This document shows, one piece after another, positions 36,980-49,357 of a DNA stretch of 64,000 bases; positions within the stretch are counted from its first letter, which is position 1; the number at the start of each line of letters is the position of its first letter. This DNA is from Plicaturopsis crispa FD-325 SS-3 (lineage: Eukaryota > Basidiomycota > Agaricomycetes > Amylocorticiales > Amylocorticiaceae): the NCBI GenBank assembly GCA_000827205.1, contig KN832555.1, positions 408,751-472,750 on the forward strand, written 5' to 3'. The position numbers were made by a program, and so were the translations under genes. Below the pieces are notes generated by a model. That model saw nothing but the letters and a program-made list of their open reading frames with translations, was not told the origin of the DNA and searched no databases.

Positions 36980-38488
<1,509 letters not shown>

Positions 38489-38760: not shown

Positions 38761-38768
38761 CGCACTTA
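38761..38768. repeat. 8-bp target-site duplication, left copy
   Basis: CGCACTTA directly abuts the left KDZ end (CACCTGTGAC). The identical octamer abuts the right end at 49350-49357. Confidence 0.9.
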
Positions 38769-39075
38769 CACCTGTGACTCCCATATGATGGGTGTTGTTA
38801 GACCTGTTATCGTGGGGGTCTCGCACGGCTAAGTCGGCTCAAATTTGCTGATCTACCGCCTCCTTCAATAAATGCTCGTTATCGATCACCTGGCACTTGT
38901 TAGATTCCCATGAAGTACCACTGTTAGATAGTCTTAGAGCACGTAGCATTCACGCGCCGATCGACAAGGCGCCTAGAGTGTGCGCCGTGGCGTCGCCGTC
39001 GCCAAACACGCGAGCTCGCTGTTCCCCACGACGAGCACGCGTTTTTGCTCAGTTTTTCGATTCCCGCCGCCGTAC
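38769..39075. repeat. KDZ left terminal inverted repeat
   Basis: Starts CACCTGTGACTCCCATATGA. Paired with 49046-49349, it holds CACGACGAGCACGCGTTTTT near its inner end, shared with the right repeat. The two repeats are nearly identical in the outer 100 bp and more diverged in the middle. Confidence 0.9.
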
Positions 39076-39158
39076 TTATGTGGTTGGAGCTCAATTACTC
39101 CGGGGGCTGTTCTTAGAGATAATATACTTTGTTATTAAGTAGAACAATACACAGTGTG

Positions 39159-41142
39159 CTAATGAGGTCCCGACGATTCGTCGCTAGACGAGTCTGAGTC
39201 CACGATAGCTGCGCTTTTGGGAGCCTTCTGCACCCTTCCCTTGCCCTTAGACGCCCTCGCCGTGCCTCCATTGGTCTTTCTCGCCCTCTTCGCCGATCCC
39301 TGAGGCTCAGCTTCAGTGTCTTCAGGACCGAGCGCTGACGCCGACGTGCTCTTCCTCTTGGTACCCTTGTCCGATCGTTGCTTCCGTGGCGGCTTCTCGA
39401 TGGTCTCGCCCCGGTCACGGCGTTCCTCCAGGTCGGCGAGATGCGAGGCAAGCTGACCCTTCGTCATCTTCTCCCAACGGCAGGCGCCAGATTTCCAGGC
39501 ATCTCGTAGTTTCCGGATGTCACCAACGGCGCCGATGGTAGAAGGGCTGGCGAATTTGACGTCCTTTGGCCATCCTATGATCCGAACGCTGAATTTTTCG
39601 ACGATGTCCTTTTCGTAGTTGCGGTAGCACATAAGTATAGTTCGGATGTGCGTAGTAGACTCTGCACACGACTAGGATTAAGTAATGCATGTCCGTAGAA
39701 AACATAAGGAATAACTCACTGAGTGCTGTCAGGATCATGCGCGTACATTGCCTGCGCACGTTTGCTAGGTTGTCGCGCTCGACAATATCTATTGCACCGT
39801 TACCGCGATTAGAGACAGGGCAGTGAACGAGGCTTGACGGACTCACTCTGGTTAAGGGCACATGCCCACTGCTCGTACTGCCGAACGATCGTGTCGGGGT
39901 CCATCTTCAAAACATCCTCCCAGAAATCCATTGAGTTGTGCGTGCCATAGTACGTTGCCTGGGCAGTGTCGTTGACGTGGCCTCTGGTCAAGAAGAAGCA
40001 AGCATATGCCCCTGTACGACTTGCCAGATTGTCGAGCTACATTGTGTCGAATGCGTACACATCAGCATTTGTATAAGTGATATACCTATGCCAAAGGATG
40101 CTCACCAGCTTGATTATCGCTTCGACGGTGGCCAGTACATCGCGAGCTGCAGCGGCGTTGTTAGCGCGTAATCCGGTGAACTTCGTCTCGCGATGCTCTT
40201 GAAGCTTCTCAAGATAATGCTGTTTCTCCGCCTTAGTCAGGTTTTTCATGTCGGGATCGTTGGCGACAAGGTCTGTTAGCTCGGCGAGGCTACGGCGACT
40301 GCCCATGGGTAGATCTAATGATAGTCAATGGCCTGTGATAGAAGATAGAATGACCTCGTACCCGCATTCACTTCTTCGGCCTTGGCGTGGATGAGCGCGT
40401 TTTTCAATGTCACTTTGCGAGTGCTCTTCGTGCGCGTATGAATCCCGATGAGTTCCTCCACCTCCTTGGGACGCATGTCAAACCTCGTCGCAATCTCCTC
40501 GACCCTGGCCTCCATATCCTTGACAACTTCGCGGACCGCATCGTTCAGTCCTTGCGTCCTCGCCGCACGTTGCTCGCGCGCGATGTCCTGCGAGGCTTTC
40601 TGTGCGTCTGTAGGACGTCCGCGTCCAGGCCGAATAGCGAGGATAGGTCGGCCGGGGTTGCGATCCTTCCAAGATGATTCATTGGCCATGTCGTCAGCTG
40701 GAGCCTTGCGCGATGAGCCCACGACTTGCGATTGCACATCGATTAGCTGTGAGTCTGAGATTGCTGATGGTACGTGGATATCGGGGGTGTGCACCGGTGG
40801 CGATGGTTCAGAATTGTAATGCAGGTTTACATCGCCAACTGAAGCAGTCGGAATGGATGTGAGACCGTCAAAGAGGACAGGGTTGGTGTGGGTAGACTGC
40901 GCTCTGGGGTCCGTCTGGTCATCGTATAGATTATCGAGGTCTAGTGGATCAGCAGGATGGAGAAGCTGGTATAGCGGATCTGGGTGGTAGAGCGGAGCAT
41001 TGAGATCAACTGCGCTGGGTATGTTGAATGAAAAACTGTCATATTCCAGTCCGCCGTGAGGATCACTAGAGCCTGGTGGGAGGGGTGGTAAAAAGTTGAG
41101 GCTGTCCAGGAAGCTCCCCGTAAAATTTGGTTGATCGTCCAT
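39159..41142 (-). CDS. KDZ-borne companion protein of unknown function
   Basis: Joined exons give about 550 residues. An acidic, Pro-rich N-terminus (MDDQPNFTGSFLDSLNFLPP; YHPDPLYQLLHPADPLDL) precedes an AT-hook-like GRGRPTDAQKASQDI. A helical part follows (VKDMEARVEEIATRFDMRPK, KNALIHAKAEEVNAG, NLTKAEKQHYLEKLQEHRET, AAARDVLATVEAIIKL), then RGHVNDTAQATYYGTHNSMD with FWEDVLKMDP, then NYEKDIVEKFSVRIIGWPKD with FASPSTIGAVGDIRKLRDAW. The C-terminus is Lys/Ser-rich (RKQRSDKGTKRK). Families of this architecture are common in agaricomycete genomes without an assigned function. It is divergent from the TET/JBP gene and shares a 700-bp promoter region with it. A DNA-binding role is inferred. Confidence 0.65.
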
Positions 41143-41851
41143 GCGCGAAGAGTGGGGGTGGAAGGGTGGTGTGCTTTGCGGGCAGGAAAAAGCTGCAGTG
41201 GTGCGCCACATTGACCGTCGACATCACGTGCGATTTGTCGCGTTGAACTTGGGCGGTAACTTTCAGTAAATTGACGCTGGCATATGCACCGTATCAGACT
41301 CACCTCACACATAGCACAGGTAGATGGGTGGTGCGTAACAGTGCCACGTACTTGCAGATAAATCGCCAAGCGTCAAACCTGCAATAATGAGTTTATATTG
41401 TCAGTGTGGTGTTGCAGAGCTAGATAGCCGGCGACGCACCTTCATATCTCGAATTATAATAGTCGTTTGAGCGTATGAATGCCTGCATTCGAAGCCCTGC
41501 CATGAGTACGGTCAAAGAGCGCTGTGCTCTGCAAGGCAACGTTGCGAGACCTACCGAGCCAGGCTGTCACTGCTGCAGATGGCGGGTGACTCGGACATAG
41601 ATTCTGTACAGATGATGAGTATTTGAATTGCGCCTACCACGGCTGAGATATGCTAGTAGTTACCCACAAAATTTGCAGCGACTCGCCGTGAGCCTGAGAT
41701 TCCGTGTGGGCATGTTTTGTTGTGGAGAAATACCTGCCACTGTCCAGTGGCGCAACTTGTCGTCTGTCGCGGGTGGTAGAGAATCTCGGGTAGAGTACTG
41801 CAAGGGTTTAGAATCACACAGCTGAGAATTCGAGAGCCTCGAGGCATCAGC
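41143..41851. promoter_or_regulatory. Divergent promoter region inside the KDZ element
   Basis: About 700 bp between the companion gene and the TET/JBP gene, which are transcribed away from each other. No coding sequence is supported. It should drive both genes. Confidence 0.45.
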
Positions 41852-44062
41852 ATGGGCGATCCCTCGCAAGCATTTGTGGATCCTAATCATAACACTTTCC
41901 TAGTTTGGACGTTGATTTGTTTCCGCGTCGGAGTTGGAAAGTTCAGCTCAGCAGACGGAACCTTCTCCTCAGTGAACACTCGAAGTCATCTCCTCCCTCT
42001 CTTTTCCTTCTCCACATACTACCCCACGCTGGTTCGCACCGTGCTGCTCAACATGCGCATTGTCCCGAAAGTAGTGAAAGGTCAGCAATATTTTTTATTG
42101 AACTCTCGAGAGAAGCTGTAGGCTGCCTGGACAATATTTCGCTGCTTCATTCCTGGACCTGCGGGTGGACTCCAGCGCTGACTCCAGCTTCTCTCTCTCT
42201 CCGTTCTTGTCCACGGAATTGCTGCTGACCGAATCTCTGTATTTTTGGGTTTTAGAAGTTGTATGCGACGTTCTCGGTAAGCTTCAACATCTGTACGCAG
42301 GATGCAGGCGCTGACGCGTTTTTCCTCACAGTGTACGCGACAGAACCGTCGTTCAGGCGTGTAAGTTACTCTCCATGTTTGGGAAACACATATACTGACG
42401 ATTTCTTCACGTAGACGCGCACGGGAAAGAAGTTCTCGCCGTGGGCCACGCCGGTCACTGCAGCCAGCGGCGCGAACTTTGACTTCGACCGCCTACTTTA
42501 CGACGCCGTCCAAGCAGAGCGCAGTCTCAAGGATGACGAATGCGAGGGCCAAGAACTTGACTATGCAATTGATTGCAACTCGCCCGCGCCCGCGCTGCCT
42601 GTCAAGTACTTGCACACCCACACGCCGTCCCCATCATCACTGGACCTAGATACACCGGCTCCATGCCAGCAAGCATCAACCAGCAAAGATGCACCACAAA
42701 ATTCGCTCCAATTTGCCACGCAAGTCTTCCATCCACGAAACCGAGAATACCCCGATGGCGAGTTCGAAAAGGCCCATCGCAAGGATGCGCACAACAGGCG
42801 TCGCGCTGAACGACGTCAACGCCAGCGCGAGAGCGCGCCATACGGCGAGTACAATTTGCGCCCGTCAGTCATCAACAAATATGTCCGGCCGGCTGTCGCG
42901 CTCAAAACTACACTCGACACCCCGAATCTTCCCCATACGATCAACGCGTACACCGGTGGCAGGGACACGGGCGCTCCGCGTAAGGTTTACACCCTTGAGG
43001 AGCTTTTGAAGCTGGGGTTCAAGTACGAGTCTTGGAGTGGCAAGTAGGTCTACAGTTATGTGTACTTCGCGATTCTAACTGACATCCTTCTAGCGACTCT
43101 AGGCCAATTACTGATGATCGTGGTAAGGTCATCGGTGCTCTTTGCTGCCAACCAGAGGATGCGGACTGGCACGAAGGCGCCGCTGATGCAATTGACAACG
43201 CGCGCTCAAGGATGCGATTCCCGAAAAAGGATTCGAATCACCGTCGCGGGGCCTTCTGCGCACAGGCGGTGGGATCGTCTTTTGGCGGTGGACAGAAGGT
43301 TTGTTTATGCCGTACCGTGTCTTCAGTCAACGCCTCACTCCCTCCTCAGATGCCTGGGAATCTTGTCAACACCGCCGTCAATGCTGCCGTCCTTGCCAGT
43401 CTACTAAGCAATGTTTATATCATCCGCATAGCCGGCTTTGCATCTGGTAGGTCTTCGACATGTTACGCTTTGTTACCGTGGCCCCTGACACCTCAGTTCT
43501 AGCTGCGTTCGCAACCTGGGCCCCGAACCTATATGCCTACTACGTTGATCACCTCAGGCCCCTCCACACTACGTATCCGCGCCTTAAGCGCAACTTCGCC
43601 AACAGTGTCTTCGCTGCAGCCACCTTCAACTTTGGTCCAGTCACCTGCACCTACCCGCACCGCGACCCAGGAAACCTTCCGTTCGGGTGGTGCGCAATTA
43701 CAGCCTTAGGCAAGTTTGATCCGACGCGCGGGGGCCATCTTGTACTCTGGGACATGCGCCTTATCATCGAGTTCCCGCCCGGTGCTACCATCCTGATCCC
43801 TTCCGCAACCATACGACACTCCAATGTGGCAATACAGAAGGGCGAGACTCGCTTCTCGTTTACGCAGTATACAGCTGGCGGCCTCTTTCGCTGGGTGGAT
43901 CAGGGATTTCAACCGAGCTCCTCATTTATGGCAGGGCTTTCGAGTCATGAGGTCAAGGAGGAGAAGGATCGCGCAAAGATCCAGGAGCGGTGGCACATGG
44001 GAGTAAACCTTTTTTCTAACCTCGCCTCTCTGCAGCAGCCTCCTAACTTTGACGCAGTTTAG
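41852..44062 (+). CDS. TET/JBP-family 2-oxoglutarate/Fe(II) dioxygenase on the KDZ element
   Basis: TET/JBP enzymes hydroxylate 5-methylcytosine or thymine in DNA (family knowledge). Start MGDPSQAFVDPNHNTFLVWT. Short exons follow (KLYATFS; VYATEPSFRR) before TRTGKKFSPWATPVT, a long basic region, VYTLEELLKLGFKYESWSGK, IGALCCQPEDADWHE and LVNTAVNAAVLASLLSN. The double-stranded beta-helix core starts near NFANSVFAAATFNFG. The iron ligands are His and Asp in YPHRDPGNLPFGWC (His at 43658-43660) and the distal His in IPSATIRHSN (43817-43819). The 2-oxoglutarate-binding Arg is in KGETRFSFTQY. All catalytic residues are present. It ends at PPNFDAV. Confidence 0.88.
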
Positions 44063-44144
44063 CTATCTTGCCTATGTTATACACTTACAGAGTCAATGAC
44101 CGTTAGTTTCTTGGCACTCTCAGTCTATTTTCTATGCTCACCGT

Positions 44145-44276
44145 GTGTTCACCATACGTTCGCCAAATGTTCACTATGAATTCGCCATACGTTCGCTATG
44201 CGTTCGCCATATGTTCGCTATGAGTTCGCTATGTGTTCACCATGAGTTCGCCATACGTTCGCTATGTGTTCACTAG
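44145..44276. repeat. 11-bp tandem repeat, 12 units
   Basis: Twelve consecutive variants of an 11-bp unit, consensus about RYGTTCGCYAT (for example ACGTTCGCTAT, GAGTTCGCCAT, GTGTTCACCAT). They lie between the TET/JBP stop and the next gene inside the KDZ element. Confidence 0.85.
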
Positions 44277-44358
44277 GTTTTTTGACGGTGCACTGAACTC
44301 ATTTCTGCCTTGCGCTGTCTAGTATCATTGCGACCACTGGCAGCACCACAAAACTTAG

Positions 44359-45260
44359 ATGGGGAAAGGACAAGGGCACAAACGGACGTCCGAAAGTGCG
44401 AGATTGGCAACCAACCGCTGGATGAATAAAGCTGGGTAATATGTCGATTCCATTCACTGTTCTGTAGCATCTTTACTCATCCAGTTCTGTAACTTCTAGG
44501 GTCCGCGAAAAGCAAAATGAGAAAGCCCGTTTACGCGTAGCGAAAAATCGTGCACGGTAAGTCCTGAATCACATATAGAATACACAATGTGCTGATAGAT
44601 AACATGTATAATAGGAACAAAGCTGCGGCGTCAGTGGGCATGTCTGACCTGCAGTCCGCCGGTACTTCAAAAAGCACCAGTGGACGGGTTGCATCGTCAT
44701 CTGCCATTATCCCACCCGTTTCTCTACGCCAGTACCGACGTTCCGCCAGTCTTGATGATATCAATGGCAGTCAATCCTCGGACGGTCAGTCGGACGAAGG
44801 CCGCAACCCTTTCGACGAGGGCTCGGACGGTCTTGTTACACTCGAAGAGCCGGATGATATCGCGCACAACCTACGACGCTGCCGCCTTGAGATGATGAAT
44901 TGGCAGTGTAATTGGGGGAGTGATGTCACCTACTGGGAGAAGCATTTCTCGGAGCTACTTGAGGAGGCACGCCAGCTCGGGGACTCGGAGATCAGTGATG
45001 GTGTGGTCAATTTCTTCCAGGAGTTCGAAGCTCACGTTCAGGAGGGAAAGGACATTCTGGAGGACTTGAAGCATGTCGCTGTGTGTACGTGCGATTCCAC
45101 GCCTGATGAGATCCGTGACCTTTTTTTCCAAGGCTTCGAGATGGTCATGGCGGTGTGCTCAGAAGTGAAGTTTTTCGAGACGAAGCTTTCTCAATACGCG
45201 CCCGCTATACCGTTGTCAAAGGTCACTGATTATAGATCGTACGGGAACTCTAGCACGTAG
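44359..45260 (+). CDS. Small basic-headed unknown protein on the KDZ element
   Basis: Exons 44359-44435, 44500-44556 and 44615-45260 join cleanly. The N-terminus is strongly basic and helical (MGKGQGHKRTSESARLATNR, then VREKQNEKARLRVAKNRARN), reminiscent of a bZIP-like basic region but without a leucine zipper. A Ser-rich linker and an acidic patch (SDGQSDEGRNPFDEGSDG) follow. The rest is a helical C-terminal part: HNLRRCRLEMMNWQCNWGSD, YWEKHFSELLEEARQL, GVVNFFQEFEAHVQEGKDIL. About 260 residues. No family recognised. Lying between TET/JBP and the transposase, all on the plus strand, suggests a role in the element (inference). Confidence 0.65.
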
Positions 45261-45409
45261 TTGTACCAAGGCTGATTACCAGTATATACAAGTACTTAAA
45301 ACAGGACAGGCCAAAATATTGACATAGCTCTGCTGAACTTGTCGCCGCCACACGATAACATCAATAACCAGTGTCCCTTGGTCGTCGTGTCTTCCTCTTG
45401 CCTTCAGCT

Positions 45410-48400
45410 ATGGCCAAGGGTCACGGTCGTGTCAGAAACCGTACCAATCTTTCAACTAGAAAGGTCCGGCATCCAGGGCCATCTCGCGATGCATCAGGCT
45501 GTAGTATACCTCTCACGCACGAGGTCTTGGGACCCACAGCGCTTGCGAAACGGGCAAAGGACATGCACGAAAAACGGAAGATAAGATTACAGGGTGAGTA
45601 TTTCAATGCTGCTTGGTACATGTAGACCATCCTTACAGTATATTCATCTGTAGAGATGACTGTCGACGAACGGCGTGCACTCGAGGCACTCCGAGAGCTT
45701 CCCATCGCAAACGACGACAATCGTGATCACACTTTCGAGGACGTCAACATCGAAGATATACTTGATGGCTCCGAACCGTTGAATATCAGCCATGCTGGCG
45801 GGGAGTTCATAGCCCTTACCGAAGAACTCAACAGTGAATTATGGAAAAAGTAAGCCCGAGCCCCAAGTCGACTTGACTGACTGTAACTAACTATGTGAAA
45901 GTCAGTACCGTCGGATACCTAGGCAAATTGACTACCGGACGCGGCGAGATCGACAAGAGCGCCGGGATCGTGCATTCAACAGGCAGATGGATGCTCTCGT
46001 AGACGCCTATCTGGTCTGGAGCTTAGACCGAGCTGAAAATCACGACGCGGGATTTTTCACGAGGTTAGCTGATTGGACTCGTGATGCCAGTGCAGATTCA
46101 GGATGCACTGAGGTCACAGTTGTTGACATATTCAGTGCATATGTTTTTTTCCTCTATATTGAGCAGCGTACTGAATGCCAGCGTTTGTTTGTAGCTGTCA
46201 AAAAAATATCTCTCCCCATCCTCCCCACTGATCGATACGTCGCATCAGCATTCGTGAGGCAAGGTGTCATGCCTTGCTCTCCTATCGCTCCTACTGTGGG
46301 GATCACAACAGATGCTCTCGAGCTCTATCGTGTAGCCCATCTGCGTAATCCTCACTTTTCTATCCAGGCCTTTGTGAAGACTCTCTGTGACCTCCATACC
46401 GTACGAGGATCTTCTGTTACTTGCCGAACACTGTGTCCTAATGTATTCTGCAGGTTCCATTCCGCCGACATCTATCTCGGCAGTTTTCGATCGCCTTCGA
46501 CCTCTACCTTGCCATCCGAGCGGATGTTGACAAAGCCGTGCATGCCGCATTACATCGCAGTTCACCCGATTGGCGTCTAAAGCATGCCTGTCCTGCGTGC
46601 ATGTACAAGCTCAAGGACGAGGACCCGCTGCTTTTCAGTATGCTATACACGCAGGACGGCAACGACTCTTTGCGGCGCGTAGTCAAACGCTCACCATCGG
46701 ACGAGGATGGAAAGCTTGGTCCATCATCCGAGCTCCCGACCGCGCGGCAAGTGAAAGGTGATCGCTATCTTTCACGCGAATACGTCAACAAGTGGGCCAA
46801 TAGAGAGCTACAAAATGCTACGGCTGTGGCAGATGATTTGGACAAAGTAAGTGGCAGCTGCATCAAGTATTTACTATGCCCAGTCGCTCATTGACTTACC
46901 ATGGCAGGACCCCGACTCCGATACCCCATGCGGAGGTCGCTGGAAGAATATGAACCAGGCCATTCTCGATAGAATGTGGGGTGTTTTTGATGAAACCGGC
47001 ATATTTTTGGCGCTCTGCCGGCACGGCTTTTCCCTGCTTATTGCAGACATGGTGCGGAGCGGAGAACTGTAAGCTTTCCACACAATATCCAATGCTCGAT
47101 GTTGACCAGTTTAACAAGTGCGAAATACCCTCTCGCTATCACCGAAAAACTCCTCGATGCATTCGGTGACAGGCTTGGAGGTGGCTACGACATCGGTTGC
47201 AAATTTAAGACCACGCTCAACAACAGCTCCCTTGGGGCTCGTGCCCGCTTACTTCATCACACGAGTCTGGTGGGTGCGTTCCATGGGCACGCTCACCAGC
47301 GGTTGTGCCAGCTCTCGCACCTTGCTACATATGTCAAGGGATTGGGCCTCGAAGACCTCGAAGGATGTGAACGGGCCTTCTCCCAGTCAAATGCTCTTGC
47401 CCCCGCTATCCGATACGCCAGTGTCTTCCATCGGCAGCAGGCCATTGCAACGTATTTCGAGCACCATGACAATTTCGAAATCTACGCAAATCTCAGTGAG
47501 CGCAACCCTATAGCGTCTATCCGGCATGATATCTAACTGTATTTGTTCGTGATTACCACAGCTACGTTTCTGTTCAATAACTACAAGCAAGCTCTCGACA
47601 TCCTATCTGATGGTGAAGTCGCCCTCCCCCTTGCTATGGCGAACCTGAATATAACCGACCGTCAAGTTTTCGAGCTCTGGCTAGCCGAAGAGAAAGAATA
47701 TCTGGTTGGCCTGCAAAAGGAACCAGAGGAGGAGACACTACAGATGGAGTATTGGCAAAAACTTGTCAATCTGCGCGGGAGCGAGTGAGTTCGACTTATG
47801 CTTTCCGAGTGAACTTGCCCATGGATACTCACATCTATGTCTCTGGTAGGAAGGACCTAGCAAGTGCAACGCCTGCTGTCTGGGATATAACAACACCCGG
47901 GACCCATGCACAGGACCACAGGGATACCACTCGTGCTACCGAGACAACACGCCGCCATGCTGTTGAAAACTACGAGAAGGACTTAAAGGCGGTGCAGGTC
48001 CTCGAACTGAGGCTCGATATCCAAGCACGCTGGATGCCAACAGATCTCGAGTGGCAGAATGCAGGCCGGCTCGTGGCGATGCGCAAATATCAGCGCGCGC
48101 TGGACACGCTCGAGGGCCTGATCGTCGCGCGGATGTTTGAGCTGACAAAAATGAACAGATCACAAACTGGTGAGTGGCGCAAGATCACGAACCACAGACA
48201 CTCACCACTCCATCCTTCTAGGCTACGCGCTGCGGAAGCACATTGGTAAGGCACTCCAAGCACGGTCCTCGGCCATCCGCACTGCACTAGAGAAGTACAA
48301 TGCATCCGCCGCATCCCTCTCTCCACCTCGTCGTACGCTTGAGTGGAAGGAGGTAGTCGAGTACGCCTTCCTAGCGGACTTTGACCTCCTTCGCGACACT

Positions 48401-48997
48401 CGCCAGGACATCTCGCAACGGCCGTGGGCAACACCAGCTGGACGATTGGCCATGGACATGCACTTCAAGATGCACCGTGCCGAAGAAGAAATTCAGCGCC
48501 TTAACATCGAGATCCGCCGGGTTGCCACATACCTTCGTGACGAGACCAGTTATCTTCATGCATGCGAGGAGCAGGTGCGCCCTTCGAATGCGGCCCTCGC
48601 TTACCAGATATCCGTGCATCGTCTACAACGCGGCCGCTTCAACTCCCAGCATGTCCGACGACTCCAGGATATTGCCAAGCTACGTGGGTTCAATGGCACC
48701 ATCTCCCCTGGCCACAGCGATGCTACAGGTCTCGGCGAAAGTGCGAGCCGACCACTGTCAGTACCCACACCGATGCCCGCGTCCCCGATGACTCTTGACC
48801 CTCCGGAGGACATTGCAGGCGCCTCACGCCCTGGGAACAGTACTGGAGCTTTCACGACCGACGATGCTTCCCCAGACGAGGAGCAGTATGTAACAGACAC
48901 TCTGGAGGAATTGGAGAGGGACGAAGACGAGGATTCATCAGTCGAAGAGGTATCTCAAGCGCTGTACACCATCTTACATGTATCGGGTGACGAGTAG
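45410..48997 (+). CDS. KDZ transposase
   Basis: Carries out cut-and-paste transposition (family knowledge). Start MAKGHGRVRNRTNLSTRKVR. Visible parts: PLTHEVLGPTALAKRAKDMH; ALRELPIANDDN; MDALVDAYLVWSLDRAENHD; HACPACMY of the cysteine cluster; TQDGNDSLRRV with the first catalytic Asp; CGGRWKNMNQAILDRMWGVF; DETGIFLALCRHGFSLL; KYPLAITEKLLDAFGDRLGG; GYDIGCKFKTTL; GAFHGHAHQRLCQLSHLATY; VKGLGLEDLEGCERAFSQSN; then NNYKQALDIL. A long helical, coiled-coil-like C-terminus follows, with an acidic end (ELERDEDEDSSVEEVSQ). Introns include 45594-45655, 46411-46453, 46852-46908 and 47072-47109. Every block reads open, so the gene looks whole. Confidence 0.92.
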
Positions 48998-49045
48998 CTG
49001 TATGCACGCTACTAGTATAGCATTAGCTTCAAAATCGAACTCAAC

Positions 49046-49349
49046 AATGTAAATACGGCGGTGTTAATCGCAAAACTGAGCAAAAACGCGTGCTCGTCGT
49101 GGCAAACAGCGAGCTCGCATGTTTGGCAACGGCGACGGCATGCGCCACGTGGATTTTGCAGCGCTTACACGTCATGCACTCTAAAGCTATCTAACAGTGC
49201 GATTTCACGGAAAATTCACGAGTGCCAGGCCAGCGATAATGGGCATTTAATGAAGGAGGCGGTAGATCAGCAAATCTGAGCCGACTTAGCCGTGCGAGAC
49301 CCACACGATAACAGGTCTAACAACACCCATCATATGGGAGTCACAGGTG
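49046..49349. repeat. KDZ right terminal inverted repeat
   Basis: The inverse complement of 38769-39075, with the outer 100 bp nearly identical and more divergence in the middle. It ends GGGAGTCACAGGTG just before the target duplication. Confidence 0.9.
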
Positions 49350-49357
49350 CGCACTTA
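49350..49357. repeat. 8-bp target-site duplication, right copy
   Basis: CGCACTTA, identical to 38761-38768. Confidence 0.9.

Follow-up and report, generated by a model that had tools for sequence, protein, structure and literature searches.

A bounded KDZ transposon of Plicaturopsis crispa carrying a divergent dioxygenase of predicted TET fold

Our favoured reading of a 64,000-nucleotide stretch of the genome of the wood-rotting fungus Plicaturopsis crispa FD-325 SS-3 (the window) is that it contains, at positions 38769–49349, a complete, probably autonomous KDZ transposon whose divergent TET-fold oxygenase aids expression or mobility of the element through 5-methylcytosine; we hold this with moderate confidence. 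The element would be a cut-and-paste KDZ transposon with long inverted ends and an 8-bp target duplication, and its transposase would act on the inverted ends, as its family suggests. The dioxygenase most likely acts on 5-methylcytosine in double-stranded DNA and would thereby keep the element expressed or mobile in a DNA-methylating host. The element may be mobile today.

The boundaries can be placed exactly. The inverted ends start and stop at 38769 and 49349, and the perfect 8-bp duplication CGCACTTA lies directly outside them (38761–38768 and 49350–49357). In a blastn comparison of the region with itself, the left terminal inverted repeat (38769–39078, plus strand, starting CACCTGTGACTCCC) pairs with the right one (49050–49349, minus strand) at 83% over 312 columns (E 2.5e-73). 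The outer 100 bp contain three differences. By chance, the flanks of such ends would match perfectly over 8 bp with a probability of about 4^-8. A search of the genome (33.2 Mb in 49 contigs, labelled C2, C3 and so on) with the left end returns four places, namely both ends of the window element and both ends of one further copy at C3:525678–538277, which is flanked on both sides by its own perfect 8-bp duplication, GGATTATG. The two independent duplications, together with the ends common to both copies, identify the element as a transposon. A sequence-only reading of the window had proposed these limits, inverted ends of about 305 bp with roughly three differences in the outer 100 bp, and the 8-bp duplication, and had suggested a genome search for copies sharing the ends; the proposal holds in each of these respects, and the second copy with its own duplication argues against chance. 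Long inverted repeats were absent from the nine other dioxygenase/KDZ regions scanned. At C10 and C19 there are short inverted pairs, of 95 and 78 columns respectively, but neither encloses a dioxygenase and a KDZ gene. To the left of the element, window positions 37771–38163 hold a frame that resembles an aminotransferase exon by eye.

All four genes of the element read open once GT..AG introns of 47–175 bp are removed. The KDZ transposase gene (45410–48997, plus strand) encodes 1042 aa in our first splice, and its product matches PF18758 over the full length of the model (1–217 of 217, E 2.8e-73). A stretch of 20 residues is missing from the NCBI model (P0121, 1022 aa) and from seven further homologues, which indicates one more intron, of 60 bp, at 46135–46194; its removal gives 1022 aa. 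The window transposase corresponds to PLICRDRAFT_383096 (98% identical). The acidic blocks FDETG, YDIGC and LEGCER align in all eight homologues compared, apart from small exchanges, and presumably include the catalytic residues. A CPAC motif ahead of the core is common to the homologues. No CxC cysteine cluster is matched in the spliced transposase or in P0121, a single exon gives a weak CxC3 match (E 0.078), and weak CxC1 or CxC2 matches occur in four of six other homologues scanned.

Two further genes accompany the transposase and dioxygenase. Gene A (39159–41142, minus strand) has five exons (41142–40362, 40314–40106, 40036–39847, 39788–39720 and 39661–39159) and encodes 583 aa; its predicted structure is of low confidence (pLDDT 61.3) and has no PDB match at E ≤ 0.001. 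Gene C (44359–45260, plus strand) has three exons and encodes 259 aa, with homologues in this genome in the C3 copy, at C3:203.6k and, weakly, at C2:8.1k. Neither product belongs to a Pfam family above cut-off; both are best explained as element genes. NCBIfam and defence-system models give weak matches only (E 0.017 or worse). The ends, the spliced frames and the PF18758 match together bear out the earlier description of a whole KDZ element with correct ends, an open transposase gene and its full cargo.

The dioxygenase gene (42053–44062, plus strand) comprises seven exons and encodes 522 aa. We aligned its exon with 44 of 120 listed homologues, these being the best 120 of 508. The first two iron ligands, His and Asp, are encoded by the HRD codons at 43658–43666 and are present in 45 of 45 aligned rows. 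The third iron ligand, His (43817–43819), is found in 44 rows with one gap, and the 2-oxoglutarate Arg (43850–43852) in 43, with one gap and one Cys. Counted without gaps, an Asn follows at His+5 (43673–43675), in the place of CcTet Gly331 and TET2 Asn1387 (PMC11040006), and a Cys at His+11. This HxDxxN5xC motif recurs in 117 of the 120 listed homologues and in all 12 loci read among the 15 found in the genome. Directly 3′ of the stop codon lies an 11-bp CpG-bearing tandem array of GTTCGCCATAC-like units (44138–44273, plus strand), which is also present in the C3 copy (L005 7059–7194); under the criterion applied, no such cluster occurs in the relative at C3:200501–210500 or at the other loci scanned.

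PLICRDRAFT_103115 is a protein encoded by the C3 copy. The fold model was built from the sister enzyme P0001 of that copy, which is 92% identical to the window enzyme over the 55% that aligns. The model is a TET-type double-stranded beta-helix. CcTet, NgTET1 and TET2 lead the structural matches by about 4 Z units, with CcTet the closest of the solved structures; next come FTO, AlkB and prolyl hydroxylases, and CMD1 does not rank above FTO. At the sequence level, P0001 has no match to Pfam PF12851 (Tet_JBP), and neither the 522-aa protein nor the 45-row profile matches CcTet in searches against the PDB. PF12851 appears at E < 0.01 in six of 45 relatives, the best reaching 1.2e-6 with 28.3 bits, below the cut-off of 34.9. 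A contrary point is P0069, for which a database listing gives a precomputed PF12851 assignment. As a positive control, locus L031 of the same genome matches Tet_JBP at 2.6e-18 and CcTet at 1.4e-21. The sequence-only reading had called the gene a TET/JBP dioxygenase with all iron and 2-oxoglutarate residues: the residues are indeed complete, and the modelled fold of the sister product supports the TET part, but the Pfam family cut-off is not reached.

Judged from the model, the enzyme is a divergent 2OG-Fe(II) oxygenase with a TET fold, of a class unlike the best-studied fungal TET. AG-type identity (the CcTet class) can be rejected, as the enzyme matches neither Tet_JBP nor CcTet and is without Gly/Ser331 and Asp337. 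The PE type (HxE) is ruled out by HRD in the window and HxD in 45 of 45 rows. The enzyme may still equal the PU type or the AG type of Auriculariales. Assignment to PF20515 (2OG-FeII_Oxy_6), a family also called Tet-like, was rejected, the genome's sole match being at C10:78283, outside the 15 loci. This place (C10:78283–78573) represents a further dioxygenase family in the genome.

The second copy makes it possible to follow the history of the element. Between the copies, the left ends agree at 95%; within each copy, the left end agrees with the right at 83–85%. The asymmetry of the ends therefore predates both insertions, and youth cannot be read from end similarity. The element had been described as apparently young, a view we cannot uphold, since the sole other copy with these ends has diverged from it to dS of about 1.1. 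The assembly contains the left flank of the window element a single time and thus shows no allele with an empty site. Identity between the copies is 88–98% from the left end to about 40.27 kb (the first 1.5 kb) and 41–88% beyond, a mosaic that rules out a simple recent duplication. Window positions 38769–40270, with the left end and the 3′ part of gene A, look exchanged between elements on this pattern of identity.

Selection was estimated between the two copies, with dS above 1 being near saturation. The dioxygenase has a dN/dS of 0.091 at dS 1.19 (513 of 522 codons) and the transposase 0.081 at dS 1.09 (1036 of 1042 codons, including about 20 that the comparison with P0121 assigns to an intron). 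Selection on the dioxygenase is thus close to that on the transposase. Gene A gives 0.26 at dS 0.48 (579 of 583 codons) and gene C 0.23 at dS 1.26 (250 of 259 codons). CpG decay, as a trace of methylation, is little.

In the C3 copy, a 1,766-bp insert (C3:534352–536117) breaks the transposase gene; it has an AT duplication, and its ends read CATCAGG..CCTGATG, like the PlavakaB ends in Kojima 2025 (PMC12730594). To the left of the C3 copy (C3:524.4–525.7 kb, L005 420–1690), the flank runs up to GGATTATG and is followed by 301 N, by the flank again (415 identical bases) and then by the element. Possibly this second copy is present in one nucleus and absent from the other; the alternative is an assembly fault.

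The dioxygenase class is repeatedly found beside KDZ genes. Of the 15 dioxygenase places in this genome, 10 have one of the 31 KDZ loci (merged from 43 exon matches) at a distance of no more than 10 kb. Among the matches listed, the best 120 per search, dioxygenase and KDZ pairs also occur in Athelia (HWV62_13787 and 13791), Hypsizygus (Hypma_012873 and 012874) and Lyophyllum, with placement on one contig assumed from matching organism and contig size. The P. crispa genome also contains CcTet-type Tet_JBP loci at C1:3185061, C28:22529, C28:82369, C31:73867 and C5:3040. Three of six Tet_JBP places are within 10 kb of a KDZ place, and the two of these three KDZ genes that entered the KDZ tree form another lineage.

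Comparison of the partners indicates that the dioxygenase has likely passed between KDZ lineages, as far as short fragments allow. The window transposase fragment shares 15–22% identity with its counterparts next to seven further dioxygenases of this class, and those seven transposase fragments are 40–51% identical among themselves; the dioxygenases are 46–54% identical between the window and the seven others and 43–58% among the seven (close pairs, at 69–94%, are excluded from these ranges). A tree of the dioxygenases, built from 12 of the 15 loci, groups the window and C3 genes with C25, C12, C10a and C19 (support 0.95). In the KDZ tree (fragment of about 130 aa; 20 of 23 regions, three having no usable frame), the window lineage joins C6, C36, C38 and C21, away from C25, C10a and C19 (0.95 for the split from the rest). 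A doubtful case is C24, whose dioxygenase is 84% identical to that of C9: its KDZ neighbour, 31% identical to the window transposase, is of another lineage and 5.4 kb away, and may be there by chance.

Gene A and KDZ genes are also linked where no dioxygenase is found. Ten of the 27 contigs with a gene A homologue also carry a listed KDZ homologue, nine of them outside the host in genera that we take to be Boletales. Among the matches listed, gene A shares a contig with a dioxygenase in the host only. A relative at C3:200.6–209 kb has KDZ, C and A. A search of it with 121 dioxygenase queries found no dioxygenase: one match at E ≤ 1e-3 covers the gene C frame, and between C and A nothing is better than 0.081. 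In the 10 kb examined around this relative (C3:200501–210500, L037), long inverted ends are absent. On this linkage, in other species and at C3:200.6–209 kb, the window element looks like a gene A/KDZ element to which a dioxygenase was added, or one whose relatives lost it.

Such relatives, in which no dioxygenase was found, would also fit an enzyme that was captured and rides along as a passenger, contributing nothing to the life of the element. We regard this as very improbable, given a dN/dS of 0.09 over a dS of 1.19, comparable to the low value of the transposase, and given that the same class stands beside KDZ genes of different lineages. A TET fold might also reflect shared ancestry alone, with the enzyme acting on RNA, protein or a small molecule in a service to host or element unrelated to DNA methylation. 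The missing Tet_JBP match above cut-off would agree with this, as would the fold lists, where FTO, AlkB and prolyl hydroxylases come next and FTO stands level with CMD1; the gap of about 4 Z units that separates CcTet, NgTET1 and TET2 from the remaining folds and the repeated linkage to KDZ genes make it improbable.

A somewhat stronger, though still unlikely, candidate is an enzyme that marks the DNA of the element durably, with 5hmC or a base modified beyond it, or that acts on another base such as 6mA. CcTet acts on both 5mC and 6mA (PMC11040006), and hypermodification is raised as an alternative in Kojima 2025 (PMC12730594). The window enzyme, however, has Asn in place of CcTet Gly331, and side chains at this position (Asn1387, Asp234, Asp350) bind N4 of 5mC and clash with 6mA (PMC11040006). 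As genes A and C fall into no Pfam family above cut-off, no glycosyltransferase is recognised. We retain the action on 5-methylcytosine, in support of expression or mobility, as the preferred reading.

Complete TET-bearing KDZ and other fungal transposons, with termini and duplications characterised, three TET types and an anti-silencing proposal, have been described in Kojima 2025 (PMC12730594), the one paper on complete TET-bearing transposons among those listed in our literature searches. The completeness and clear limits of the copy, which had been singled out at the outset, are real but not new in kind. The expected association of KDZ and TET also stands as regards a TET-fold cargo, which is not the CcTet-type (AG) TET of Agaricomycete Kyakuja elements. 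As characterised in the main account of that study, TET-bearing Kyakuja share with the window element a KDZ transposase and a TET-fold dioxygenase in one bounded Agaricomycete transposon, as well as CA..TG termini. Two Laccaria families have 7-bp duplications and no inverted repeats, whereas the window element has 8 bp and repeats of about 310 bp; the AG-type enzymes of Kyakuja keep Asp337 and Gly/Ser331, in contrast to Cys and Asn here. Amylocorticiales, to which the host belongs, is absent from the five orders that the study lists. TET-bearing Zisupton and Dileera have 8-bp duplications like the window element, and Zisupton also has inverted repeats; the main account reports the former from Auriculariales and Agaricales only and the latter from rusts, with enzymes of AG, PE (HxE) or PU type.

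In overall build, the window element resembles KDZ1, KDZ2 and KDZ3 of Cryptococcus neoformans, which are experimentally mobile (PMC12810828). In the passages of that paper compared here, these measure about 9–11 kb and have inverted repeats of 139–241 bp, duplications of 8 bp (4–8 bp for KDZ2/3) and a transposase with a CxC1 domain; those passages mention no dioxygenase.

Boletales-type transposases, at 48–64% identity, are among the closest outside the host in the matches listed, and 25 of the 27 gene A matches come from Boletales-type genera. The gene A and KDZ contigs of Suillus, Leucogyrophana, Hygrophoropsis and Hydnomerulius (presumably all Boletales) are known from protein matches alone and, unlike the window element, show no dioxygenase among the best 120 of 508. 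The finding differs from known TET-bearing transposons in enzyme class and in its long-repeat build.

Oxidised cytosines are reported to be enriched in transposons of two mushrooms (PMC8889193). We tentatively suggest that two TET-fold sorts, without clear sequence kinship in our searches, are in use side by side among the DNA transposons of a single fungal lineage: the CcTet sort and an HxDxxN...C sort with the base-reading Asn of human TET2, the latter in more than one KDZ lineage and not yet described as transposon cargo. The residue pattern of the window enzyme predicts activity on 5mC and little on 6mA, unlike the bifunctional CcTet. Should the enzyme prove to oxidise 5mC, fungal KDZ elements would have two TET-like tools of distinct sequence at their disposal within a single genome. 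The anti-silencing idea could then be put to a direct test in one saprotrophic fungus, which offers a bounded element whose transposase gene is open as well as relatives of it that carry the enzyme and others that do not.
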